From: an uncultured Verrucomicrobia subdivision 3 bacterium
Lineage (GTDB): Bacteria > Verrucomicrobiota > Verrucomicrobiia > Limisphaerales > UBA11358
NCBI GenBank assembly: GCA_903850425.1
Contig: CAINLR010000126.1
Location: 1-47,466, forward strand
Direction of reading: 5' to 3'
Length of the DNA stretch: 47,466 bases
Below are positions 436 through 35,345 of the stretch, in pieces. The translations under genes were made by a program, and so were the position numbers. The notes below the pieces were generated by a model that was not told the DNA's origin, did not search any database, and saw nothing but the letters and a program-made list of their open reading frames with translations. Numbering within the stretch: position 1 is the stretch's first letter; each line of letters starts with the position of its first letter.

Positions 436-2046
436 ATGCTCATCATTCGCGATTTAAAAATGACTTTCGGCGGGCGCACGCTCTTCGAGAACGCCTCGTT
501 CCAGGTGAATTACGGCGAACGCGTCGCGCTGGTCGGGCCCAATGGCGCGGGCAAAACCACGCTGTTCTCGCTCATCCTCAAGCAGCGCGAGCCGGATGCC
601 GGCACGATCGAACGCGATGAGTGGACGATGGTCGGCTATCTGCCGCAGGAGGGCGAAGCGCATGGCGACGAGACCATTCTGGAGGTGGCCACCGGCCGCG
701 TGGATGAATTGCCGGCGCTCGAAAAACTCCTGCACAAGATGGAAGCCGCCGGCGATGTGGCCTCGCCCGAATACATGGAGGCGCACGCGAAGCATGACAA
801 GCTGAACGATCCGCTGGTGGAAACCAAGGCGAAGAAGATGTTGCGCGGCCTGGGCTATCGCGACTCAGATTTCGATCGCAAGGCCAAGGAAATGAGCGGC
901 GGCTGGATCATGCGCGCCCGGCTCGCGCGCCTGCTGGTGATGGAGCCGGATTTGTTGCTGCTCGACGAGCCGACGAACCATCTGGATTTGCTCTCGCTGC
1001 TGTGGCTGCAGAATTACCTGAAGAATTACACCGGCGCGCTACTGCTCATTTCGCATGATCGCCAGTTCATGGACGAAGTGATCGGCCAGGTTCACGAAAT
1101 TTCGGAGAAGAAGTTGATCGCCTACACGGGCAATTACTCCGACTACCTCACCCAGCGCGAGGAACGCTACGAACAGCAGCTCGCGGCCTATAAAAACCAG
1201 CAGAAGGAAATCTCCGACTTGCAGGCGTTCGCGGATCGCTTCCGCTCCATTCCGTCCAAGGCATCGCAGGCGCAGAGCAAACTCAAGCAGATCGAGCGGC
1301 TCGAACTGATCGAGAAACCGCTCGCACCGCGCAAGCCGTTTCGTTTCCAGATCCCGCCGCCGCCGCGGGGCGGGCAGCGCGCCGTTTCGCTGGAAGCTAT
1401 TCACATGGCCTACGGTGCGACGAAAGTTTATCAAGGTCTCGACCTCACGGTGGAACGCGGCGAACGCACGGTCCTGGTGGGGCCGAACGGCGCGGGCAAG
1501 TCCACGCTGCTGAAAATTCTCGCAGGCGTCGTGCCGTTTCAGAAAGGCAAACGCGATCTCGGCCACAATGCGAAGATCGGTTATTTCAGTCAGCATCGCG
1601 CCGACACGCTGGACCCGGAAAAGAACGTGCTTGATGAAGTCATGGCCAGCGCGCCGCTCATGCGCGAAGACGAAGCGCGCGCCGTGCTCGGCTCGTTCAT
1701 GTTCCGCAAGGACGACATCTACAAGAAGACGGCGGTGCTGAGCGGCGGTGAAAAGAGCCGGCTGAATCTGGTGAAATTTCTCGTGGATCCGCCGAACCTG
1801 CTGCTGATGGACGAACCGACAACGCACTTGGATATTCACACCGTCGAGTCGCTCACGCTGGCGCTGGAACGCTACGAAGGCACGCTGGTATTCATTTCGC
1901 ACGATGTGCATTTCATCAGCCATCTCGCGACGAAGGTGCTGCATGTGAATGCCGGCACAGTCACGCCGTATGTGGGCGGCTATGAATATTTCCTGGAGAA
2001 GACCGGGGCCGCCGATGACGCCCGCGCCGCCCTCACGGCGGGTTGA
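436..2046 (+). CDS. ABC-F family ATPase (Uup/EttA/YheS-like)
   Basis: Soluble protein of 536 residues with two ABC ATPase domains in one chain and no membrane segment, the architecture of ABC-F proteins, which mostly act on the ribosome. Domain 1 has Walker A GPNGAGKTT (about 34-42), signature SGGW (154-157) and Walker B LLLLDEPTNHLD (173-184). A charged helical linker with KASQAQSKLKQIE (about 275-287) matches the P-site tRNA-interaction motif region. Domain 2 has GPNGAGKST (349-357), LSGGEKSRL (435-443) and LLLMDEPTTHLD (455-466). The frame is open further upstream, but only through the 21-bp repeat array; homology begins at the ATG at 436 (MLIIRDLKMTFGG), so I start there. The subfamily (translation factor, Uup-like or resistance) cannot be decided by eye. 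It is convergent with the mla operon, separated by 61 bp. Confidence 0.93.
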   Translation: MLIIRDLKMTFGGRTLFENASFQVNYGERVALVGPNGAGKTTLFSLILKQREPDAGTIERDEWTMVGYLPQEGEAHGDETILEVATGRVDELPALEKLLHKMEAAGDVASPEYMEAHAKHDKLNDPLVETKAKKMLRGLGYRDSDFDRKAKEMSGGWIMRARLARLLVMEPDLLLLDEPTNHLDLLSLLWLQNYLKNYTGALLLISHDRQFMDEVIGQVHEISEKKLIAYTGNYSDYLTQREERYEQQLAAYKNQQKEISDLQAFADRFRSIPSKASQAQSKLKQIERLELIEKPLAPRKPFRFQIPPPPRGGQRAVSLEAIHMAYGATKVYQGLDLTVERGERTVLVGPNGAGKSTLLKILAGVVPFQKGKRDLGHNAKIGYFSQHRADTLDPEKNVLDEVMASAPLMREDEARAVLGSFMFRKDDIYKKTAVLSGGEKSRLNLVKFLVDPPNLLLMDEPTTHLDIHTVESLTLALERYEGTLVFISHDVHFISHLATKVLHVNAGTVTPYVGGYEYFLEKTGAADDARAALTAG

Positions 2047-2107
2047 AGTGGTTTGGGAACCCTGCTTTCCCTGAACCGGAGCGCGGCGGCGGCCGCGACG
2101 CTGGCGT

Positions 2108-3082
2108 TTACAAACCGAACTGGCCAGCGATGATGCCGATGACGCTCAACGGTCCTTGGTCTTCCAGTCCGTCCGCCGCCTTGTCCAGCTTTTGCAGCGA
2201 GACCTTGGCGTTCTTGTAGAATTCCTGGTCGTTCACCAGCTTGCCAACGGTGCCCTGACCTTGGTTGATCTTCAGCAAAATCCCGTTCAAGTTGGTCATC
2301 GAAGCCGTGGTCGCATGGTAAAGCGTTTCGTCGGTGATCAGTTTGCCGATGGTGCCCTGACCCGCGCTGACATTGTTTATCACGAGCTTGGCCGAGGCTA
2401 ACGCTTCTTTGGCCGAAGTCGCGGTGTCCTGCAAATTGCTCACGGTCGCCAGGGCGGTGACATACAGCGCGTCTTCATTGATCAGTCTCCCCACGGTGCC
2501 CTGGCCGGCGGCAATCTGGCTGGAAATGTTTTTCACGTTGGCAATCGTCGCCGTGATGGGCGCGCTGTTCTGTTTGAAGAAATCCGTGAGCGGGCCGAGG
2601 ATGTTGTCAATTTTGTCGCCGGAAAAAACCTTGGTGATGTTCTGGATGCCGGCGGCGGCATTGTCGAGTTTGGTCATGATGGCGCTCAAGTCGGGCTGTT
2701 CGCCTGTCTCCAGATAATTACCGTCCGTGAGCCGGGAACCATTGGCCGAACCAAAGCTGACCGCCACAAAATTCTGCCCCATCAAGCCGGTGAATTTGAT
2801 GACGGCCTGACTGTCGGTTTTGACCACGGCTTCGGTGTGCAGTTTCATCAGCACGTTGACCTTGCTGTTGGTCAGGGTGATGGATTCGACCCGGCCGATT
2901 TCGACGCCGGCCATTTTGACGCGGTCGCCCACCTTCAAATCCTGCGCCGAGTCAAACAGCGCGCCGACGTGGTAGCCGGGCCGGAAGAAATCGGCGCTGC
3001 CGAGCGTTTCAATAATGGCCCAAGCGGCGAAAACCGCGAGGATGACAAACATGCCGAGCTTGGTTTCGAGGGAGTTTTTCAT
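2108..3082 (-). CDS. mlaD: MlaD-like MCE-domain protein
   Basis: Predicted periplasmic lipid-binding subunit of an Mla-type ABC system, 324 residues. A single N-terminal membrane anchor (about 10-28) is followed by one MCE domain (about 35-115, with VGDRVKMAGVEIGRVESI). The rest is a helical tail. The tail carries a motif three times: GQGTVGRLINEDALY (from 193), GQGTIGKLITDETLY (from 241) and GQGTVGKLVNDQEFY (from 275). E. coli MlaD is about 180 residues, so this belongs to the longer class with an extended C-terminal helical region. It lies 12 bp downstream of the ATPase gene and is last in the mlaE-mlaF-mlaD order. Its substrate is inferred to be phospholipid from the family. Confidence 0.9.
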   Translation of the reverse strand: MKNSLETKLGMFVILAVFAAWAIIETLGSADFFRPGYHVGALFDSAQDLKVGDRVKMAGVEIGRVESITLTNSKVNVLMKLHTEAVVKTDSQAVIKFTGLMGQNFVAVSFGSANGSRLTDGNYLETGEQPDLSAIMTKLDNAAAGIQNITKVFSGDKIDNILGPLTDFFKQNSAPITATIANVKNISSQIAAGQGTVGRLINEDALYVTALATVSNLQDTATSAKEALASAKLVINNVSAGQGTIGKLITDETLYHATTASMTNLNGILLKINQGQGTVGKLVNDQEFYKNAKVSLQKLDKAADGLEDQGPLSVIGIIAGQFGL

Positions 3083-3094
3083 AGGCAGAGGGGA

Positions 3095-3853
3095 TTAATG
3101 TTCGCGTTGAAATTCGACGTGCAAGAAATTTTGCACGAGTGGGTCTTTGAAGTTTTTGACTTCATCAGGCGTGCCGATGGTGACGATGCGGCCTTCGGCA
3201 ATGAACGCAATGCGATCCGCCACGCCAAAAGCCAGGTCGCGGTCGTGCGACACCACCAGCGACGTGACGCCGATGCGCTGCTTGAGTTCCAGAATCTCGT
3301 TGCCGATGATGACCGCTGAAACCGGATCCAGTTCGCTCGTCGGTTCATCGTAAAGAATCAACTGCGGGTCAATTACGAGCGCGCGGGCGATGGCCACTCG
3401 CTTCTTCATGCCGCCGGAAAGTTCGGATGGCATTTTATGCAGCGCGTCCTTGAGGCCGACGTCGGTCAGTTTTTCCAAAACGATGCGCTCAATTTCCGCC
3501 GCCGGCTTGAGCCGATGTTCGGTCAAATACAGCCCGACATTCTCGCCGACGGTGAGCGAGTTGAGCAGCGCACCGGATTGAAACACCAGCGCCATGCGAT
3601 ATTTCGCGGCGACTTCCGGCGCGGTGATCGGCTCACTATTGATCAGGATCTCGCCGGCGTCCGGCGCTTCGAGCCCGATGAGATGTTTGAGCAAAACGCT
3701 TTTGCCGCTGCCGCTCGGCCCCATGATGACAAAGATCTCGCCGGGCTGGACCGCGAAATCAATGCCGTTGAGCACCGGCTGATCGCCAAAATTCTTGCGC
3801 AGGCCGCGCACGACGAGGCCGACTCCGGTAGCGTGGTTAAGCGGGCCGTTCAT
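3095..3853 (-). CDS. mlaF: MlaF-like ABC transporter ATP-binding protein
   Basis: Cytoplasmic ATPase of the Mla-type phospholipid transporter, 252 residues, a normal length. It has Walker A GPSGSGKS (45-52), Q-loop VFQSGAL (90-96) in the form typical of MlaF/Mkl proteins, signature LSGGMKKR (145-152) and Walker B LILYDEPTSELDP (165-177). The usual AGLDP after the Walker B is SELDP here. Its start codon overlaps the stop of the permease gene (ATGA, 3850-3853), which indicates translational coupling. It acts with the MlaE permease and MlaD encoded next to it. Confidence 0.94.
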   Translation of the reverse strand: MNGPLNHATGVGLVVRGLRKNFGDQPVLNGIDFAVQPGEIFVIMGPSGSGKSVLLKHLIGLEAPDAGEILINSEPITAPEVAAKYRMALVFQSGALLNSLTVGENVGLYLTEHRLKPAAEIERIVLEKLTDVGLKDALHKMPSELSGGMKKRVAIARALVIDPQLILYDEPTSELDPVSAVIIGNEILELKQRIGVTSLVVSHDRDLAFGVADRIAFIAEGRIVTIGTPDEVKNFKDPLVQNFLHVEFQREH

Positions 3854-12340: not shown

Positions 12341-15022
12341 ATGACCGGCGCACCCACATCTGAACAAACCAGTGTCCAGCATCCAGCATCCACCCGGTTG
12401 CCGGAACTGCTCGCGCCTGCGGGCGACTGGGATTGCGCCAAAGCCGCCGTGGAAAATGGCGCGGACGCGATCTACTTCGGCCTCGACAAATTCAACGCCC
12501 GGATGCGCGCCCACAATTTCACCGAGGCGGTGCTGCCCAAGCTCATGGAATTCCTCCACCGGCGCGGCGTCAAAGGCTACATCACCTTTAACACGCTGGT
12601 CTTCGAGAACGAACTCGCCGATGCGGAAAATTATCTGCGCTCTATCATTGCTGCCGGCGTGGATGCGGCCATCGTGCAGGACGTGGGCATCTGCAAATTG
12701 ATCCGCTCGCTCTCGCCAGATTTTCCGATTCACGCCTCCACGCAGATGACCGTGACCAGCGCCGCCGGCGTGGAATTCGCCCGCAACCTCGGCTGCAACC
12801 TCGCCGTGCTCGCCCGCGAATGTTCGATTGCGGAGATCGAGAAAATTCAAAATAGTTTCAAGTGTTCCGTTTCAAGTGTTCAGTCAGAAACCAGCAACAA
12901 CTTGAAACTGAACCCTGAAAACTTGAAACTTCCGCTCGAGGTTTTTGTCCACGGCGCGTTGTGCGTCGCGTATTCCGGCCAATGTTTGACGAGCGAATCC
13001 CTCGGTGGTCGTTCGGCGAATCGCGGTGAATGCGCGCAGGCCTGCCGGATGCCCTACGATTTGATTTCCGACGGCAAACAAGTTCCACTCGGCGACAAGC
13101 GCTATTTGCTGAGTCCGCAGGATTTGTCCGGCCTGGAGGTTTTGCCCGACCTCGTGCGCGTTAGCGTGGCGTCGCTGAAAATTGAAGGCCGCCTGAAATC
13201 GCCCGAATACGTCGCCAGCATCACGCGCGTCTATCGGCAGGCCCTCGATAAAATTGGTAGCGACCGACGTGCGTCGGCTCAAACTTCTTCCCCCGAAAAT
13301 CAAAATGAGCCATCGCACATCCGGGACCTTGCAGATCAAGACCGTTACGAACTCGAGATGTCCTTCTCCCGCGGGCTGTTCACCGGCTGGTTTGGCGGCA
13401 CGGATAATCAGAAACTGGTCCACGCGCGCTTCGGCAAAAAACGCGGCGTCTATCTCGGCGAAGTCGCGCAGTTGTTGCGCGAAGCCGTGCTGGTGAAGCT
13501 CGAAGCGCCGCTCAAACTCGGCGACGGCATTGTTTTCGACGCCGGCCGGCCGGATGAAAAGGAAGAGGGCGGGAGAATTTACGGCATCAAAGCCTCAAAG
13601 CAGAAGATCGCCAATGCCGAAGCTTCCATTTTGGAGTTTGGCTACGGCAACATTGATTTTTCCCGCGTCCGCGTCGGCGACAAAATTTGGAAAACGAACG
13701 ATCCCGAACTCGACAAGCGTTTGCGCCAGAGTTTCGCGGGCGACGTGCCACGGTTTCAGCGGCCCATCGAAATCGAAGTCCACGGCCTCGCCGGCAAACC
13801 CCTGACGCTGATCGCGCGGGACGAGGCAGGCCATGTCGCGCAGGTCGAATCCTCGATGCCGCTGGCGGTGGCGGAAAAACTGCCGCTCTCCACGGAGAAA
13901 TTGCGCGAGCAACTGGGCCGGCTTGGCGGCACGCCGTTCAAGCTGGGCGAGCTGAAAAACTTTCTGTCGGGCGAAGTCCTGGTGCCGGTGAGCGAATTGA
14001 ACCGCCTGCGCCGCGAGTTTGCCAGCGAACTGGAACGCCTGCGCGCACTGCCAAAGCGGTGGCAACTGAATGATGGTAGCCGCCGATGTGAATCGGCTTT
14101 CACTAACAACCCAGAGATTGATTTGAGCCGACCCACGTCGGCTGCTACGCCGCAATTAATCGTCCTTGTCCGCAACCTCGCGCAGCTCGAAGCCGCGCTG
14201 CAATGCGGCGTGACTACGGTTTACTGCGAGTTTGAAGACCCGAAAAAATATCGCGAGGCCGTGACCCTGTTCCACACCGCGCGCGGCTGCTCGGCACCCT
14301 CCGCCATTGTCAATTCTCCATCCTCGCCCGGCATTTTCGTCGCCCCGCCGCGCATTTTCAAAACCGGTGAGGAATGGGTGTTGAACATCGTTCGTTCGTG
14401 CAATCCCGACGGCTACCTCGTGCGCAACTACGATCACCTGAAATTTTTTGCCGGGGCGCGCTGCGTCGGAGACTATTCGCTCAACGTGGCGAACCATCTC
14501 ACGGCCGATTATTTCAAGAACCATTTCGGTCTCGAACGCGTGGCGGCGAGTTATGACCTGAACGCGACGCAGCTCGACGCGTTGCTCACGGGCGCACCGC
14601 CGGATTGGTTTGAAGTGACCATTCATCAGCACATGCCGATGTTTCACATGGAGCATTGTGTGTTCTGCGCGTTTCTTTCCAGCGGCAAGGATTATCGCGA
14701 CTGCGGCCGGCCGTGCGACGTGCATGACGTGCGCGTGCGCGACCGCGTGGGCGCGGAACATCCGCTGAAGGCCGATGCCGGCTGCCGCAACACCGTCTTC
14801 AATTCCCAGGCGCAGACCGGCGCGGAATTCGTGGCGCGGCTCCTCGCGCTCGGCGTGCGCAATTTCCGCGTGGAGTTTCTGAACGAATCGGTGGAGGAAG
14901 TGACGCGGACGATTTCCAAATACCGGCAGTTGTTGCGCGGCGAAATCACCGGCACGCAGCTCTGGCGCGAACTGAAACTGTTCAATCAGCTCGGCGTCAC
15001 GCGCGGGCAGATGGGAAAATAA
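12341..15022 (+). CDS. U32 family peptidase with three in-frame repeat insertions
   Basis: Predicted U32 protein of 893 residues. The family includes collagenase-like peptidases and enzymes of tRNA/ubiquinone hydroxylation. The N-terminal U32 core starts at LPELLAPAGDWDCAKAA and contains the family signature EVFVHGALCVAYSGQCLTS (from about residue 200). A collagenase-like middle domain and a C-terminal half ending with a Cys-rich segment (EHCVFCAFLS...CGRPCD) follow, as in long double-domain U32 proteins. Three stretches that family members normally lack coincide with palindromic DNA repeats: residues about 172-197, 306-315 and 579-603. All keep the frame and fall at probable loops or linkers. 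The protease activity of this family is debated. The 3' end overlaps the convergent ankyrin-like gene by 37 bp. Confidence 0.9.
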   Translation: MTGAPTSEQTSVQHPASTRLPELLAPAGDWDCAKAAVENGADAIYFGLDKFNARMRAHNFTEAVLPKLMEFLHRRGVKGYITFNTLVFENELADAENYLRSIIAAGVDAAIVQDVGICKLIRSLSPDFPIHASTQMTVTSAAGVEFARNLGCNLAVLARECSIAEIEKIQNSFKCSVSSVQSETSNNLKLNPENLKLPLEVFVHGALCVAYSGQCLTSESLGGRSANRGECAQACRMPYDLISDGKQVPLGDKRYLLSPQDLSGLEVLPDLVRVSVASLKIEGRLKSPEYVASITRVYRQALDKIGSDRRASAQTSSPENQNEPSHIRDLADQDRYELEMSFSRGLFTGWFGGTDNQKLVHARFGKKRGVYLGEVAQLLREAVLVKLEAPLKLGDGIVFDAGRPDEKEEGGRIYGIKASKQKIANAEASILEFGYGNIDFSRVRVGDKIWKTNDPELDKRLRQSFAGDVPRFQRPIEIEVHGLAGKPLTLIARDEAGHVAQVESSMPLAVAEKLPLSTEKLREQLGRLGGTPFKLGELKNFLSGEVLVPVSELNRLRREFASELERLRALPKRWQLNDGSRRCESAFTNNPEIDLSRPTSAATPQLIVLVRNLAQLEAALQCGVTTVYCEFEDPKKYREAVTLFHTARGCSAPSAIVNSPSSPGIFVAPPRIFKTGEEWVLNIVRSCNPDGYLVRNYDHLKFFAGARCVGDYSLNVANHLTADYFKNHFGLERVAASYDLNATQLDALLTGAPPDWFEVTIHQHMPMFHMEHCVFCAFLSSGKDYRDCGRPCDVHDVRVRDRVGAEHPLKADAGCRNTVFNSQAQTGAEFVARLLALGVRNFRVEFLNESVEEVTRTISKYRQLLRGEITGTQLWRELKLFNQLGVTRGQMGK
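12854..12930. repeat. In-frame inverted repeat inside the U32 gene (TTTCAAGT type)
   Basis: AGTTTCAAGT at 12854-12863 and its exact complement ACTTGAAACT at 12921-12930 bracket further TTCAAGT, GTTCAG and CTGAA words. The insert encodes roughly residues 172-197, between EIEKIQNS and LKLPLEVFVHG, which are contiguous in ordinary U32 proteins as I remember them. Confidence 0.7.
13256..13283. repeat. In-frame REP-like element in the U32 gene, GGTAGC...GGCTCAA family
   Basis: GGTAGCGACCGACGTGCGTC followed by GGCTCAAA, with internal hairpin CCGAC-GTGC-GTCGG (13264-13277). It is a single arm of the same family as the pair at 14075-14148, encoding about residues 306-315 in a probable linker (KIGSDRRASAQ). 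Confidence 0.75.
14075..14148. repeat. In-frame REPIN-like element in the U32 gene, GGTAGC...GGCTCAA family
   Basis: The left arm starts GGTAGCCGCCGATGTGAATC (14075). The right arm ends GTCGGCTGCTAC (14148); its reverse complement reads GTAGCAGCCGACGTGGGTCG. The two inverted arms flank about 20 bp, giving a REPIN layout. The element encodes about residues 579-603, between the two halves of the U32 protein, with no stop. Confidence 0.8.
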
Positions 15023-26333: not shown

Positions 26334-27962
26334 TCAAGGCTTGTCACCGGCATTTCCAAACAGGGAATTGATTTTCGCCTTCACGCTTTCATCCATCTTG
26401 ATGAGCGGCGGCCACGCGCGTTTGAAACCTTCGCCGGGAATTTTCTTTGTCGCGTCAAAACCCATTTTGCTGCCGCTGGCGATTTCACTGGTGGCGTGGT
26501 CGAGCACGTCGGACGGGCCTTTGGTGAAAATGCTGTCGCGCTGCGGATCGGTGTTGGCCGTGAGATGGAACAGCACTTCGCTGGTGTTGTGGACGTTCAC
26601 GCCGGCGTCCACCACCACGATGTATTTCGTGAACATCATCTGCCCCATGCCCCAGAGTCCGTGCATGATCTTGTAGGCCTGCATCGGGTAGGTCTTCTTG
26701 ATGCTGACGAACACGAGGTTGTGGAACACGCCTTCCGCCGGCAGCGCGATGTCCACGATCTCGGGAAAATTCATTTTGAAGATCGGCAGAAATAATTTCA
26801 CGCTCGCGCCGCCGATGTAAAAATCTTCCATCGGCGGAATGCCGACAATCGTCGCCGGATACACCGCATCCTTGCGATGTGTGATGGCCGTGATGTGAAA
26901 CACCGGATACGGCTCGGGCAAAGTGTAATAACCGGTGTGATCGCCGAACGGCCCTTCGTCGCGCAACGGCTCGGTCGGGTCAATGTAACCTTCGATGACG
27001 AAATCGGCATTGGCGGGAACTTCCAGATCGTTCGTTTCGCATTTGATCATCTCGACGGATTTTTTGCGGAGATAACCGGCGAGCAGAAATTCATCCAGTC
27101 CGTCCGGCAACGGCGCAGTGGCGGCGAAGGGAAACATCGGGTCGCCGCCGATGAAAATGGCGACGGGCATCCGCTCGCCCTTTTCGTAATAGCGACGGCC
27201 ATGGCGCGCGGCGACTTTCTGCAACTGCCAGTGCATGCCGGTGGTTTTGTCGTCGTAAATCTGGATGCGATACATGCCGAGATTGCGCTCGCCGGTGTCC
27301 GGGTCGCGCGTGACGACGCAGGGGAGCGTGATAAAACGTCCACCGTCGAGCGGCCAGCATTTGAGGATGGGCAAATTCAGAAGTGTGGGGAGCACACGCG
27401 TCTCGCGTGTGGTTGTCGGCGTCGCGCCGACAACTTGTTTGTCTGACGAAGTGTTTCCGGCGAGGACGCCGGAAACCGCAGGCGAGACGCCCGCGCTCCC
27501 CAGAATATCCGGCGCACCCGGCCACGGCTCTTTGCGCGAAGCCGGTGCTTCGTATTTGTGGATTACATCTTTGCACGAACCGCTCTTCACCGTCTTTGGT
27601 TTCGCGTGGCGCAAATCCAGCGCGAGCGAGAGCAGCTTGATGGCTTCCTTGAAACTCGTCGGCGGCTTGGCTTTCATCAGCGCGCCGAGTTCGTTCGCCA
27701 CTTCGTCCACGGACTCCGCGCCCATGCTCATGGCCATGCGTTTGTGCGAGCCAAGCGTGTTGATGGCCACCGGAAATGGCGAGACGACGCCATTGACGGT
27801 GGGCTTTTCGAACAGCAGCGCCTTGCCGCCGCCGGGCAGTTTCATTTCGCGGTCGGCGATCTCGGTGATCTCGAGTTCGGTGGCGACGGGCTGGGAAATG
27901 CGTTTGAGTTCGCCCGCCCGGTCGAGCGCGTTGACAAAATCGCGGAAGGAATCAAAAGCCAT
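26334..27962 (-). CDS. ubiD: UbiD family decarboxylase with in-frame 39-residue repeat insertion
   Basis: Prenylated-FMN-dependent decarboxylase of 542 residues; E. coli UbiD is 497. It acts on hydroxybenzoate- or naphthoate-type precursors of quinones, or on other aromatic acids. The N-terminus (MAFDSFRDFVNALDRAGELKR), GGGKALLFE, GMYRIQIYDDKTTGMHWQ, EGPFGDHTGYYT and the C-terminal KIPGEGFKRAWPP fit the family. Residues 154-192 (LGSAGVSPAVSG...RETRVLP) are not part of the family; they are encoded by a 117-bp palindromic element at 27386-27502 just before the conserved LPILKCWPLDGG. This insert is exactly 39 codons. The gene is flanked on both sides by partial ubiD-end copies (25527-25649 and 28809-28922). 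The quinone pathway is not determined by the window. Confidence 0.93.
   Translation of the reverse strand: MAFDSFRDFVNALDRAGELKRISQPVATELEITEIADREMKLPGGGKALLFEKPTVNGVVSPFPVAINTLGSHKRMAMSMGAESVDEVANELGALMKAKPPTSFKEAIKLLSLALDLRHAKPKTVKSGSCKDVIHKYEAPASRKEPWPGAPDILGSAGVSPAVSGVLAGNTSSDKQVVGATPTTTRETRVLPTLLNLPILKCWPLDGGRFITLPCVVTRDPDTGERNLGMYRIQIYDDKTTGMHWQLQKVAARHGRRYYEKGERMPVAIFIGGDPMFPFAATAPLPDGLDEFLLAGYLRKKSVEMIKCETNDLEVPANADFVIEGYIDPTEPLRDEGPFGDHTGYYTLPEPYPVFHITAITHRKDAVYPATIVGIPPMEDFYIGGASVKLFLPIFKMNFPEIVDIALPAEGVFHNLVFVSIKKTYPMQAYKIMHGLWGMGQMMFTKYIVVVDAGVNVHNTSEVLFHLTANTDPQRDSIFTKGPSDVLDHATSEIASGSKMGFDATKKIPGEGFKRAWPPLIKMDESVKAKINSLFGNAGDKP
27386..27502. repeat. In-frame palindromic element inside ubiD (117 bp)
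   Basis: Outer arms TGTGGGGAGCACACGCGTCT and, as complement at the other end, TGGGGAGCGCGGGCGTCTCG. Two perfect inner hairpins: GTTGTCGGC-GTCGC-GCCGACAAC (27412-27434) and GTTTCCGGCG-AGGA-CGCCGGAAAC (27453-27476). At 117 bp it equals 39 codons and has no stop in the ubiD frame. Confidence 0.88.
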
Positions 27963-28922: not shown

Positions 28923-28967
28923 CTGCCCGCACAGCGATTGGAGCGTTGATAGTTGCCGGGAGCCAGT

Positions 28968-28993
28968 TTGAGCCGACTCACGTCAGCGGCGAC
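28968..28993. repeat. REP-like element of the GGCTCAA family next to tyrS
   Basis: TTGAGCCGACTCACGTCAGC followed by GGCGAC closely resembles TTGAGCCGACCCACGTCGGC at 14123 in the U32 gene. This degraded copy ends 3 bp from the tyrS stop codon. Confidence 0.6.
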
Positions 28994-28995
28994 GA

Positions 28996-30273
28996 TTACT
29001 TGGCGGTGATGACGACGTAATTCTTTTTCCCTTTGCGCAGGAGAATGTGTTTGCCGAAGAGCAAATCGCTGGCGGCCACCGCCCGCGCCGCGCTGGCTTC
29101 GCGGACATTGTTGATATTCACGCCGCCGCCTTCGATGTCTTTTCGCGCCTGGCCTTTGGAGGGACACAAGCCGGCGTGAACCAACAGTTCCACCAGCGGC
29201 AGGCCCGCGCCGTCCAGGGTGGCGCGCGCCATTTCCTTCGTCGGCACTTCGCCCACGATTTCATTGAAGGTGCTTTCGGCCACGTCTTTCAATTCGCCGC
29301 CGAATAAAATTTCGCTTGCGCGCACGGCTTCCGTCGTCGCCTGCGCCCCGTGAATCAAATCGGTGGCAAATTTCGCCAGCGCCTTGTGGGCAATTCGCGG
29401 GCCGGGATTTTCCGCGTGCTGCTTTTCCAGCGCCGCGATTTCTTCCGGTGCCAGAAACGTGAAGAATTTCAAGTAGCGGATGACATCGCGGTCGTCGGTG
29501 TTGATCCAGAACTGGTAAAATTTATAGACGCTCGTGCGTTTCGGATCGAGCCAGATGGCCCCGGCGGCGGTCTTGCCAAACTTGGAGCCGTCGGTATTGG
29601 TGATCAGCGGCAGGGTGAGGCCAAAGACGTGGCGGCCCAGTTTCTTGCGCGTGAGTTCGATGCCCGCCGTGATGTTGCCCCATTGGTCGCTGCCGCCGAT
29701 CTGCAGTTCGCAATGCTGCTCGCGGCACAACACCATGAAATCGAAAGCCTGCAGCAGCATGTAGCTGAATTCGGTGTAGCTGATGCCGACCTCGCGGTCT
29801 TCCATCCGCGCCCGGACGGATTCCTTGGCGACCATCTGATTGACGGAAAAATGTTTGCCGATGTCGCGCAAGAATTCGAGGAACGATATCCCCGTGGTCC
29901 ACGCGGCGTTGTCCAGGAGCCGCGCGGGATTTTGTTGCGTTTCAAAATCGAGCAGTTTGGCGAGCTGCACTTTCACGCTGGCGATATTGTGATCCAGCAG
30001 TTCCTTGGTCAGCAACTGGCGCTCGGCCGTCTTGCCGCTGGGATCGCCGATGCTGCCGGTCGCGCCGCCCGCGACGGCGATCGGATGATGGCCGAGCAGT
30101 TGAAAGCGGCGCAGCGCGAGGAGCGGCACGAGATTGCCAACGTGCAGGCTGTCGGCGGTTGGATCGAAGCCGCAGTAAAGCGTGATCGGCGCAGAAATTT
30201 TTTTGGTCAATTCCGCCGTGTCGGTGCAATCAGCGACCAGGCCGCGCCATTGTAATTCTTCAAGAATGCTCAC
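28996..30273 (-). CDS. tyrS: Tyrosyl-tRNA synthetase
   Basis: Class I aminoacyl-tRNA synthetase attaching tyrosine to tRNA-Tyr in the cytoplasm, 425 residues, normal for TyrRS. It has the HIGH-type motif HVGN (44-47), the conserved catalytic stretch GDPSGKTAERQLLT, the tyrosine pocket YMLLQAFD (171-178) and GGSDQWGN (193-200), and the KMSKS-type motif KFGKT (231-235). A C-terminal S4 RNA-binding domain covers about 358-420 (LVHAGLCPSKGQARKDIEGG). The KFGKT form is known in bacterial TyrRS. It probably forms its own transcription unit. Confidence 0.97.
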   Translation of the reverse strand: MSILEELQWRGLVADCTDTAELTKKISAPITLYCGFDPTADSLHVGNLVPLLALRRFQLLGHHPIAVAGGATGSIGDPSGKTAERQLLTKELLDHNIASVKVQLAKLLDFETQQNPARLLDNAAWTTGISFLEFLRDIGKHFSVNQMVAKESVRARMEDREVGISYTEFSYMLLQAFDFMVLCREQHCELQIGGSDQWGNITAGIELTRKKLGRHVFGLTLPLITNTDGSKFGKTAAGAIWLDPKRTSVYKFYQFWINTDDRDVIRYLKFFTFLAPEEIAALEKQHAENPGPRIAHKALAKFATDLIHGAQATTEAVRASEILFGGELKDVAESTFNEIVGEVPTKEMARATLDGAGLPLVELLVHAGLCPSKGQARKDIEGGGVNINNVREASAARAVAASDLLFGKHILLRKGKKNYVVITAK

Positions 30274-32507: not shown

Positions 32508-35345
32508 ATGAAATTCCACCGCCGACTATCGCTCGCTCTGGCCGCGTTTTTTCTGGCCACGACCGGCGCGTTTGCCGCCGATGACGCCTTCGCCTGGCCC
32601 CCCATCACCTCGCAGCAAAAACCGTGGGCCTACAACTGGTGGATGGGCAGCGCTGTGGATAAAACCAATCTCACCAAGGAACTCGAACGCTACGCCGCCG
32701 CCGGCCTCGGCGGCATCCACATCATTCCGATCTACGGCGCGAAGGGGTTTGAGGACAAATACATCAATTACCTCTCGCCGCAGTGGATGGAAATGATGGG
32801 CTGGGCGGTCAGCGAAGCGAAGCGGCTCGGCATGGGTGTGGACATGACCACCGGCAGCGGTTGGTGTTTCGGCGGGCCGCAAATCACCGATGAAGATGCG
32901 AATGCCAGCGTCGTGGTGAAAACCTACGAGTTGAAGGCCGGCGAAAAGCTCACGCAAAAGTTCGACCGCAAGACCACGCAGGCGCTGGTCGCGTATTCAC
33001 CGGACAGAAAATCCGTTGAACTCACGGACAAAATTTCTGCGCAAGGCGAAGTGGATTGGATTGCGCCGGCAATTTCAGGAGCGCGGACAGCCTTGTCCGC
33101 GAGTTCCACGGATCAAATTCGCGCGGACGCGGCCGTCCGCGCTCCGGAGGGCGGTTCATGGACCATTTACGCCATCTCCCAAAAACCTTCCGGCCAGAAA
33201 GTGAAACGTCCCGGCCCCGGCGGCGAAGGCTGGATGCTCAACCTCATTTATCCGCCCGCGATGGATGATTTTCTCAAGCCCTACACCGCCGCTTTCGCCA
33301 ATTACACCGGCCCCAAACCGCGCGCCCAGTATCACGATTCCTACGAGTATCGCTCCGACTGGTCGCCGGATTTTTTTGCGCAATTCGAGAAGCGCCGCGG
33401 CTACCGACTGCAGACCGAGCTGCCTTCTTTGTTCAGCACCAAAGACGAAGATCATGCCAATCGCGTGAAGTGCGACTACCGCCAGACCGTTTCTGAAATC
33501 ATGGCCGAAGAATCGTTGCCCAAGTGGGTGAACTGGTCGCACGAACACGGCTTCCTCACGCGCAATCAGGCGCACGGTTCGCCCGGCAACTGGCTCGATC
33601 TCTACGCCGCCGCCGACATTCCCGAGACCGAGATGTTTCACGCCGACCGCAACAAGCTTATCTCCAAATTCGCGTCGTCCGCCGCGCACGTCACCGGCAA
33701 GCCGCTCGTCAGTTCCGAGACCGGCACCTGGATCGAGGAACATTTCACCGAGAAGCTGTCCGACGTGAAATATCTCTTCGACGACATGTTTCTCTCCGGC
33801 ATCAACCACATGTTTTATCACGGCTGCTGCTACTCGCCCGACGAAGCCGGCTGGCCCGGCTGGCATTTCTACGCCTCGCTGGAAATGAACCCGCGCAATT
33901 CCATCTGGCGCGACGCCCCCGCGCTCAACGCCTACGCCGCGCGCGTGCAATCCATCCTGCAATCCGGCCAGCCCGACAACGACATTCTGCTCTACTACAA
34001 CGCCGCCGATTTCTGGATGCAGCCCGGTGACAAGCTGCTGCCGCAACTCACCGTCCACGCCCGCGACTGGTTCGAGGGCCAGCCCATCGGCAAGTTGGCA
34101 AAGGACCTGTGGGATAGAGGCTATCAATTCGATTACGTCTCAGACGCCCAGTTGAAGACGGCGAAAGCCGTTGACGGAAAAATTCAGATGTCCGGAGGTA
34201 ACTACAAAGTCATCGTCGTGCCGGAATGCAAATACATTCCGCTGGAAACTTTTAAGCAATTGATCGCGCTGTCAGAAGGAAGGGTGATCATTTTTTTCCA
34301 AAATAAGCTTCCGGACGATATTTCTGGAGCAAATGATGTAACTGAAAAACAACAAGAACTGAGAAAGATAAGCTCAAATTTGGAAATTCGTAATTTCAGT
34401 TCAAGTGCGCGTGATTGGGAAGAATTCCCACACGGCAAAGGAACAATTTGGCGAGGTGCTTCATCGTTTATTGGATACTTGGACGGAGTTCACCCTACCG
34501 TGAGCTATAACGATGGCATCCCCGTGGATGACCTCTCCTTTATTCGACGCTCATTCAATGGTGGTTTGTGTTATTTCATCGTCAATCATGGTAACAAGAA
34601 TGTTGACACTTGGTTTGTTTTGGAAAGCCAACTTCAATCCGCTGTTTTGCTCGATCCAATGACGGGGGATTCTGGAATGGCTGCCATTTCCTATGGTGAA
34701 ACTCGTCAGCGTAATGGCTTCAAATTGACAAAACCAAATAAACTTCATCTTCAACTCGCCGCCGGCGAGTCCGTGATTCTCCGCGCCTTCGCCGACAAAA
34801 AAGTGGAAGGCCCGGCTTGGAATTATTGGCAGACCAACGGCCAGCCGGTTGAAATCGCCGGCCCGTGGAACGTGAAATTCATCCTCGGCGGCCCGACGCT
34901 GCCGGCGGATTTTCAAACCGCGAAGCTCGTCTCGTGGACGACGTTCCCCGACACGAACACGCAAGCCTTCGCCGGCACCGTGAAATACGAAACCATGTTT
35001 GCTGTAGATGAGCCGCTTGGAAAATCCTTCGAGTTGAACCTTGGTAATGTTTGCCAAAGTGCGCGAGTGAAATTGAATGGCAAAGACTACGGCACGTTGA
35101 TTACGCCTCCATTTCGCGTGGTTGTAAACAATTTGAGTCCCCTCACCAACCTTCTCGAAGTGGAAGTCACCAGCGTCGCCGCCAACCGCATCCGCGATTT
35201 GGATCGTCGCGGCGTGCCGTGGAAAACTTTCCGCGACATCAACATCGTGGACATCAATTACAAACCCTTCGACGCTTCGAATTGGCCGTTGACCGATTGC
35301 GGCCTGCTCGGCCCGGTCACACTAACGCCAGTGATCGCGAAATAA
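32508..35345 (+). CDS. GH106-like alpha-L-rhamnosidase
   Basis: Secreted protein of 945 residues with a signal peptide (MKFHRRLSLALAAFFLATTG...). The N-terminal half has the GH106 pattern: PWAYNWWMGSAVDK, ELERYAAAGLGGIHIIPIYG, MGWAVSEAKRLGMGVDMTTG and GSGWCFGGP. The middle has HDSYEYRSDWSPDFFAQFEKRRGY, VSSETGTWIEEHFTE and a C-terminal beta-sandwich domain (VEVTSVAANRIRDL). GH106 enzymes release L-rhamnose from plant or bacterial glycans. Residues about 191-213 (GARTALSASST...AAVRAP) are encoded by a palindromic repeat inserted in frame at 33078-33145. From about 34190 to 34760 the DNA is clearly AT-richer than the rest, so the gene may be a mosaic. It is divergent from the FucP-like transporter. 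Confidence 0.85.
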   Translation: MKFHRRLSLALAAFFLATTGAFAADDAFAWPPITSQQKPWAYNWWMGSAVDKTNLTKELERYAAAGLGGIHIIPIYGAKGFEDKYINYLSPQWMEMMGWAVSEAKRLGMGVDMTTGSGWCFGGPQITDEDANASVVVKTYELKAGEKLTQKFDRKTTQALVAYSPDRKSVELTDKISAQGEVDWIAPAISGARTALSASSTDQIRADAAVRAPEGGSWTIYAISQKPSGQKVKRPGPGGEGWMLNLIYPPAMDDFLKPYTAAFANYTGPKPRAQYHDSYEYRSDWSPDFFAQFEKRRGYRLQTELPSLFSTKDEDHANRVKCDYRQTVSEIMAEESLPKWVNWSHEHGFLTRNQAHGSPGNWLDLYAAADIPETEMFHADRNKLISKFASSAAHVTGKPLVSSETGTWIEEHFTEKLSDVKYLFDDMFLSGINHMFYHGCCYSPDEAGWPGWHFYASLEMNPRNSIWRDAPALNAYAARVQSILQSGQPDNDILLYYNAADFWMQPGDKLLPQLTVHARDWFEGQPIGKLAKDLWDRGYQFDYVSDAQLKTAKAVDGKIQMSGGNYKVIVVPECKYIPLETFKQLIALSEGRVIIFFQNKLPDDISGANDVTEKQQELRKISSNLEIRNFSSSARDWEEFPHGKGTIWRGASSFIGYLDGVHPTVSYNDGIPVDDLSFIRRSFNGGLCYFIVNHGNKNVDTWFVLESQLQSAVLLDPMTGDSGMAAISYGETRQRNGFKLTKPNKLHLQLAAGESVILRAFADKKVEGPAWNYWQTNGQPVEIAGPWNVKFILGGPTLPADFQTAKLVSWTTFPDTNTQAFAGTVKYETMFAVDEPLGKSFELNLGNVCQSARVKLNGKDYGTLITPPFRVVVNNLSPLTNLLEVEVTSVAANRIRDLDRRGVPWKTFRDINIVDINYKPFDASNWPLTDCGLLGPVTLTPVIAK
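33078..33145. repeat. In-frame REPIN-like element in the GH106 gene, GGAGCGCGG family
   Basis: Left arm GGAGCGCGGACAGCCTTGTC (33078) and right arm whose complement is GGAGCGCGGACGGCCGCGTC (ending 33145), flanking about 20 bp. It encodes about residues 191-213 without a stop. The same arm type occurs in the intergenic element at 12154-12261. Confidence 0.87.

Follow-up and report, generated by a model that had tools for sequence, protein, structure and literature searches.

Palindromic repeat families recur in three variable loops of a U32 family protein in Verrucomicrobia

The DNA analysed here (the window), a stretch of 47,466 nucleotides from an uncultured Verrucomicrobia subdivision 3 bacterium, contains a gene for a U32 family protein (the query) into which three palindromic repeats are built. 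The question that this locus raises is how such repeats became protein sequence, and why they are found in this gene. A preliminary description, made from the sequence of the window, had placed the three repeats in frame and without stops within the gene; our analysis bears this out, and all three are real and lie in the one open frame listed in Table 1.

Loop 1 contains an inverted array of 7-nucleotide-type units (the TTTCAAGT class, with a palindrome score of 14); the array lacks the GTAG tag, and its classification as a REP was rejected for this reason. The repeats in loops 2 and 3 have GTAG at one end of an imperfect palindrome of 20-40 nucleotides (GTAGCGACC... at 13257, GTAGCCGCC... at 14076 and, inverted, ...GCTGCTAC ending at 14148; the loop-3 pair has a palindrome score of 13), and both are GTAG-type REPs, in agreement with the proposal that two of the three repeats belong to one family. 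The feature described in loop 2 as a single REP arm (13256-13283) most likely represents a decayed pair, judging from the sequences of the gene and its homologues. A lone arm was rejected on account of a degenerate second arm and of the full REP pairs in loop 2 of two homologues (L013 and L057), whose repeat loop has the same length of 26 nucleotides as that separating the arms in the query. The repeat loop of the query matches that of L057 at 18 of 26 positions (0 of 20,000 shuffles as good) and that of L013 at 13 of 26 (2.7% of shuffles). The pair is assigned on place and loop over arm letters, because 10 of the 2480 other positions in the gene reach the consensus score of the second arm. 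In addition, an array of 7-nucleotide units near the amino terminus is weaker than the three repeats, with a CCAGCAT-array match that exceeds all 60 shuffles.

Table 1. Location of the host gene and its repeats in the window
Feature	Position	Strand	Details
U32+DUF3656 protein gene, 893 aa, repeat host	12341..15022	+	open frame; Pfam PF01136 E 3.7e-83, PF12392 E 1.9e-25
N-terminal 7-nt array CCAGTGT, CCAGCAT, CCAGCAT, CCACC, one-armed	12369..12394	+	read in sequence
Loop 1: inverted TTTCAAGT-type repeat	12854..12930	+	arms 12854-12884 / 12900-12930; residues 172-197
Loop 2: left arm of GTAG REP pair	13257..13280	+	19/24 consensus bases
Loop 2: right arm of REP pair, most likely decayed	13307..13330	+	13/24 consensus bases; assigned on place and 26-nt loop
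Loop 3: GTAG REP pair	14076..14148	+	arms 14076-14099, 14125-14148; residues 579-603

The query matches the peptidase U32 model of Pfam (PF01136) with 278.8 bits against a curated cut-off of 22.4, and its DUF3656 match extends to residue 568. The DUF3656 domain would be a ground for assigning the protein to RlhA. Like RlhA/TrhP, U32 family proteins of prephenate-dependent RNA hydroxylation, it has a U32 domain with the essential Glu/Cys/Cys at the same spacing (PMC6599085); unlike TrhP, it scores 205.6 bits with the NCBIfam TrhP model NF011996, below the cut-off of 534. The residues E200, C208 and C215 are invariant in a structure alignment of 48 rows (the query plus 47 references out of a list of 96), and the cysteines follow the glutamate at +8 and +15, which is the spacing of E161/C169/C176, required in E. 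coli RlhA (PMC6599085). By sequence, the query retains the residues that its E. coli relatives cannot do without, and their invariance and RlhA-like spacing make the query a likely, predicted active enzyme. The end of the loop-1 repeat lies about 3 residues ahead of E200. In the predicted structure (mean pLDDT 80.3, pTM 0.84), loop 1 links a helix (163-180) to a strand (199-204), and loop 3 separates a helix (550-569) from a strand (605-610). Model confidence is low at residues 183-189 and 588-593, and block mean pLDDT values of 63 and 52 are found at residues 311-330; a stretch of the conserved core (206-231) is likewise partly low in pLDDT, which counts against reading low confidence as an argument for loops. 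A PDB sequence search with the query gave no match at E <= 0.01, and a fold search returned weak TIM-barrel matches, the fourth-ranked being the U32 structure 5d88 (E 1.9e-4).

Protein searches gave a match at E <= 1e-30 in 51 of 59 related genomes, and 80 loci were taken from genome contigs; 111 aligned homologue rows became 100 after removal of identical or contained proteins. The near relatives of the query are from Verrucomicrobia subdivision 3 / Limisphaerales MAGs. Among the 100 homologues, the loop-1 segment (169-198) ranges from 8 to 53 residues (30 in the query against 8-16 in 12 cyanobacterial homologues), the loop-2 segment (303-332) from 8 to 71 (30 in the query) and the loop-3 segment (574-606) from 23 to 73 (33 in the query). 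With minima of 8, 8 and 23 residues, loops 1 and 2 may shrink almost to nothing, and loop 3 is always a linker. The suggestion that the repeats were added as new linker peptides accordingly holds for loops 1 and 2 but is too simple for loop 3, where all 100 homologues have at least 23 residues, so that the repeat fills a linker existing everywhere. The alignment also agrees with the expectation that the loop peptides would be missing or differently filled in relatives.

An ungapped hairpin scan of the 100 homologous genes gave 54 palindromes in 33 genes at a score of at least 14, compared to 1 in codon-shuffled copies of the same genes, and 41 compared to 0 at a score of at least 16. A GC-rich linker that happens to resemble a palindrome, or an artefact of assembly, has a very small probability as the explanation: single palindromes of score 10-12 do arise in codon-shuffled genes too (106 at a score of at least 10 and 13 at a score of at least 12), but the control at higher scores led us to reject chance or low complexity, and copies of the repeats are dispersed through the genome (see below), and the same architecture occurs in independently assembled genomes. 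Most of the palindromes scoring at least 14 (46 of 54, spread over 32 genes) lie inside loops 1-3. Five length-variable blocks (169-199, 306-335, 414-436, 579-602 and 644-667) hold 57 of the 58 palindromes that score at least 13 between residues 20 and 890; the exception is a core palindrome of score 13.0 near residue 124 of one homologue (L067), outside the variable blocks. A sixth, weakly variable block at the carboxy terminus (809-888) contains no palindrome at a score of at least 13. Repeats inside one U32 gene are real, but they are not particular to the copy in the window, since the same loops are filled by other repeat families in other species.

The repeats belong to families that are dispersed in the genomes, as found in each of four dispersal tests (the query REP, the query loop 1, and the loops of a Nostoc homologue, L087, and of a homologue designated L020). 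In the 6.9-Mb genome of the window, the 22-nucleotide core pattern of loop 1 has 17 matches at up to 3 mismatches (2 for the reversed control), with copies at 0 mismatches at 3 places besides the window, and the loop-1 sequence itself has 12 matches at E <= 1, self included. The arm pattern of the loop-3 REP has 93 genome matches at up to 3 mismatches, against 38 for the reversed control at the same limit, and 44 of the 93 are at up to 2 mismatches. Intergenic REP pairs are also present (for example, at 1596-1681 of locus L157 in the same genome), and the loop-2 and loop-3 repeats share with other GTAG REPs the many dispersed copies that often form inverted pairs. A related REP arm pattern is found in 29 of 36 genomes of the same genus, where the reversed control gives 0 matches. 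The loop-1 cassette of L020 has 50 and 53 matches at E <= 1 in the genomes of L020 and its close relative L018, and loop 2 of the Nostoc homologue has 43 matches at E <= 1, self included, in its own genome. A TGCGGAN triple-unit pattern is found in 22 of the 36 genus genomes; it was not found in the genome of the window, where its reversed control has 3 matches. Within the window, a further REP-like arm (28967-28994) lies just downstream of the stop of a minus-strand gene (28996-30273).

Grouping the rows by lineage, drawn by the analyst from titles and the tree, places 0 loop palindromes of score at least 13 in 12 cyanobacterial rows, 2 in 20 Opitutales-like rows and 51 in the 68 remaining rows. 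Five of the 12 cyanobacterial homologues (L087, L093, L107, L115 and L082) have a cyanobacterial repeat label in loop 2; that of Nostoc L087 stays under the palindrome threshold despite its 43 genome matches. Across all 80 loci, near-duplicates kept, palindromes scoring at least 14 number 34 in 215 kb of U32 genes (0.158 per kb), 4 in the 256 kb of 286 neighbouring genes (0.016 per kb) and 30 in 158 kb of non-coding DNA (0.189 per kb). U32 genes are enriched 10-fold over their neighbours at this threshold, and 6.7-fold at a score of at least 18, on few neighbour-gene hits. A home-made gene caller was used for these neighbour counts, as for the own-genome and REP-arm counts below. The near-equality of U32 genes and non-coding DNA might suggest that palindromes of any family are retained for their mRNA hairpin, for instance in translation pausing at domain borders; palindromes also outlast the turnover of families, and loop 3 lies between the DUF3656 match, which ends at 568, and the next strand at 605. 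This is quite unlikely, however, as 67 of the 100 genes have no palindrome at a score of at least 14 and none of the 12 cyanobacterial genes has one at a score of at least 13.

The in-frame excess raised in the preliminary description was not found genome-wide, and was rejected in favour of a depletion in genes. In 447 kb of the genome of the window, the 314 called genes (368 kb) contain 9 palindromes scoring at least 13, 2 of them in the query gene, and the 79 kb of intergenic DNA contain 46; the density per kb is about 24 times lower in genes than outside, so that depletion in genes is strong overall. Three of the 46 look like one CRISPR-like array: positions 83-460 of L157 contain three palindromes with the same 24-nucleotide sequence and different spacers. 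Among the 30 best REP-arm matches for which a locus was fetched, 12 fall within called open reading frames, namely 2 in the query gene, 1 in L136 and 9 in other Pfam-matched genes with in-frame REP arms (L132, L133, L134, L135, L137, L145, L147, L148 and L149). The match in L136 was dropped as chance, as it apparently consists of native residues of a DFP domain. The host genes include a translesion-polymerase open reading frame (IMS/PHP/DNA_pol3_alpha), a photolyase, a pseudouridine synthase, YbeY and XdhC, the first three of which are gene kinds that also appear in the lists of PMC3733652. Two other genes in the window contain in-frame palindromes: a UbiD-type decarboxylase gene (26334-27962, minus strand) with a palindrome of score 20.5 at 27386-27502 (minus strand; residues ~154-193, which separate the match to the N-terminal domain from that to the Rift-related domain), and a glycoside hydrolase family 106 gene (32508-35345) with one of score 17 at 33075-33148 (plus strand; residues ~190-214).

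The palindromes in the U32 loops comprise several types of GTAG REP, arrays with an inverted second arm (units TGCGGAA, TTTACGA, TTTCAAG/TGTTCAG, GTCAC, GGGTCTG and GTCGAGA) and others. Family labels are found in loops 1, 2 and 3 of 34, 38 and 44 of the 100 rows, beyond all 60 shuffles, although the analyst compiled the family list from the same data and labels were defined after viewing them, so that there is some circularity in the label counts and in the arm identities. The reading frame of the left REP arm is identical in 9 of 10 loop-3 rows (the tenth being a poor match) and in 5 of 5 loop-2 rows; one of the three reading frames of the arm is closed, the one that reads TAG. Between species, the loop-3 REP arms have a mean identity of 0.80 (36 pairs of 9 rows, a value inflated by the choice of rows for their resemblance to the REP consensus); the corresponding values are 0.53 for fourfold sites and 0.29 for the repeat loops. 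Also, the close pair L018/L020 (92.6% amino acid identity) has loop-1 segments of 57 and 108 nucleotides, in which the surplus is a palindrome. The query and its sister L010 (87.7%) have the loop-3 pair in common but differ in the repeats of loops 1 and 2 and in those of the amino terminus, where each has its own 7-nucleotide array.

These comparisons bear on whether each loop received one old insertion that was inherited vertically, the differences being decay of the same element. Part of the repeat loop of the loop-3 REP pair is common to the query and L010 (0.64 identity), so that this pair looks vertically shared and the repeats are not all new arrivals; at loop 2, the pairs of L013 and L057 are similar in length and loop to that of the query, and L018 and L020 have the same 7-nucleotide family in loop 2. 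As a general account, vertical inheritance is nonetheless improbable. Loops 1, 2 and 3 have 10, 13 and 17 labels, with at least 20, 23 and 29 changes on a protein tree built without the loops; the fairly close pairs L052/L057 and L046/L078 have unrelated repeats; and L013 and L050 have identical arms over 48 nucleotides at a fourfold-site identity of 0.56. A different possibility, for which we see only a small chance, is that a loop that already holds a palindrome is a landing pad, in which a newcomer preferentially enters or replaces the resident hairpin and unrelated families trade sites. Direct switches between fairly close species would fit such a landing pad, as would loop 3 of L071 (gene 463-3165), where a tandem AAATCCG array is nested in the loop of a REP pair. 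If true, the landing pad would be a natural cassette-exchange system for loop peptides over hundreds of species.

We consider it highly likely that dispersed palindromes insert, that copies in genes are mostly purged, and that the survivors are those in the indel-tolerant loops of the U32 protein, where they decay and are replaced. Several short palindromic repeat families dispersed in these Verrucomicrobia genomes would insert at many places, and most copies in genes would be lost because the protein is broken. The U32+DUF3656 protein may have five internal surface loops that accept extra residues, and this tolerance would be the reason for the retention of repeats; in-frame copies landing there would survive, decay and give way to other families. 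The outcome would be species-specific sets of repeat-coded loop peptides in a protein that is still functional.

Insertion of this kind would resemble transposition. For the GTAG type, mobilisation by RAYT is a published hypothesis (PMC3733652), and RAYT may act here as well. Y1_Tnp is present in 33 of the 36 genus genomes, and in 5 of 20 sampled Y1 loci from relatives REP arms occur somewhere in the fetched stretch. The 3 Y1 transposase loci in the genome of the window, however, all lack GTAG REP arms of the families tested, at up to 5 mismatches. In one of them (L119, ~1419-2440), the Y1 transposase gene lies between the short inverted repeats gtcagttcttggtattg / caataccaagaactgac, with no GTAG REP beside these terminal repeats. 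We know of no enzyme for the 7-nucleotide arrays.

Cyanobacterial STRR repeats are 7-nucleotide tandem repeats, as are the TAACTGA repeats of Beggiatoaceae (PMC4679880). The arrays in the U32 genes resemble both in having seven-base tandem units dispersed in the genome and differ in that most have an inverted second arm and that they can occur in coding sequence. The Rickettsia palindromic elements (RPE; cited in PMC3733652) are palindromic DNA translated as an additional peptide within functional genes, and the U32 repeats resemble them as in-frame palindromes coding a peptide absent from relatives. The likeness is one of working, and the U32 repeats are found in another phylum than Rickettsia. 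In the verrucomicrobium Opitutus terrae, in-frame GTAG REPs inside genes often are dimers that code 20-30 residues, some genes (such as uvrA) are hit twice, and flexible linkers or loops have been suggested as places that tolerate them (PMC3733652). The U32 REPs are like these in being GTAG-tagged palindromes in frame inside genes of a verrucomicrobium. They differ in that three orthologous loops are reused by many families, where most genes in PMC3733652 have REPs at different sites, and in that the U32 loops also hold 7-nucleotide arrays without the GTAG tag. GTAG REPs in frame and genes hit twice are already published, as is a single instance of REPs at one shared site, in recB of two Xanthomonas species (PMC3733652). 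Two features appear to be new, namely the repeated filling of three orthologous loops with turnover of families, and inverted 7-nucleotide arrays as coding inserts; the titles and abstract openings of the open-access literature gave no description of multi-family recurrence at orthologous loops.

Our analysis thus provides a replicated natural experiment on the conversion of non-coding repeats into protein sequence, in which filled alleles can be compared with closely related empty ones. The same three loops of one enzyme have been independently filled by many repeat families, which shows protein positions that accept 10-40 foreign residues, and a class of inverted 7-nucleotide arrays is documented to enter coding sequence, as REPs do.
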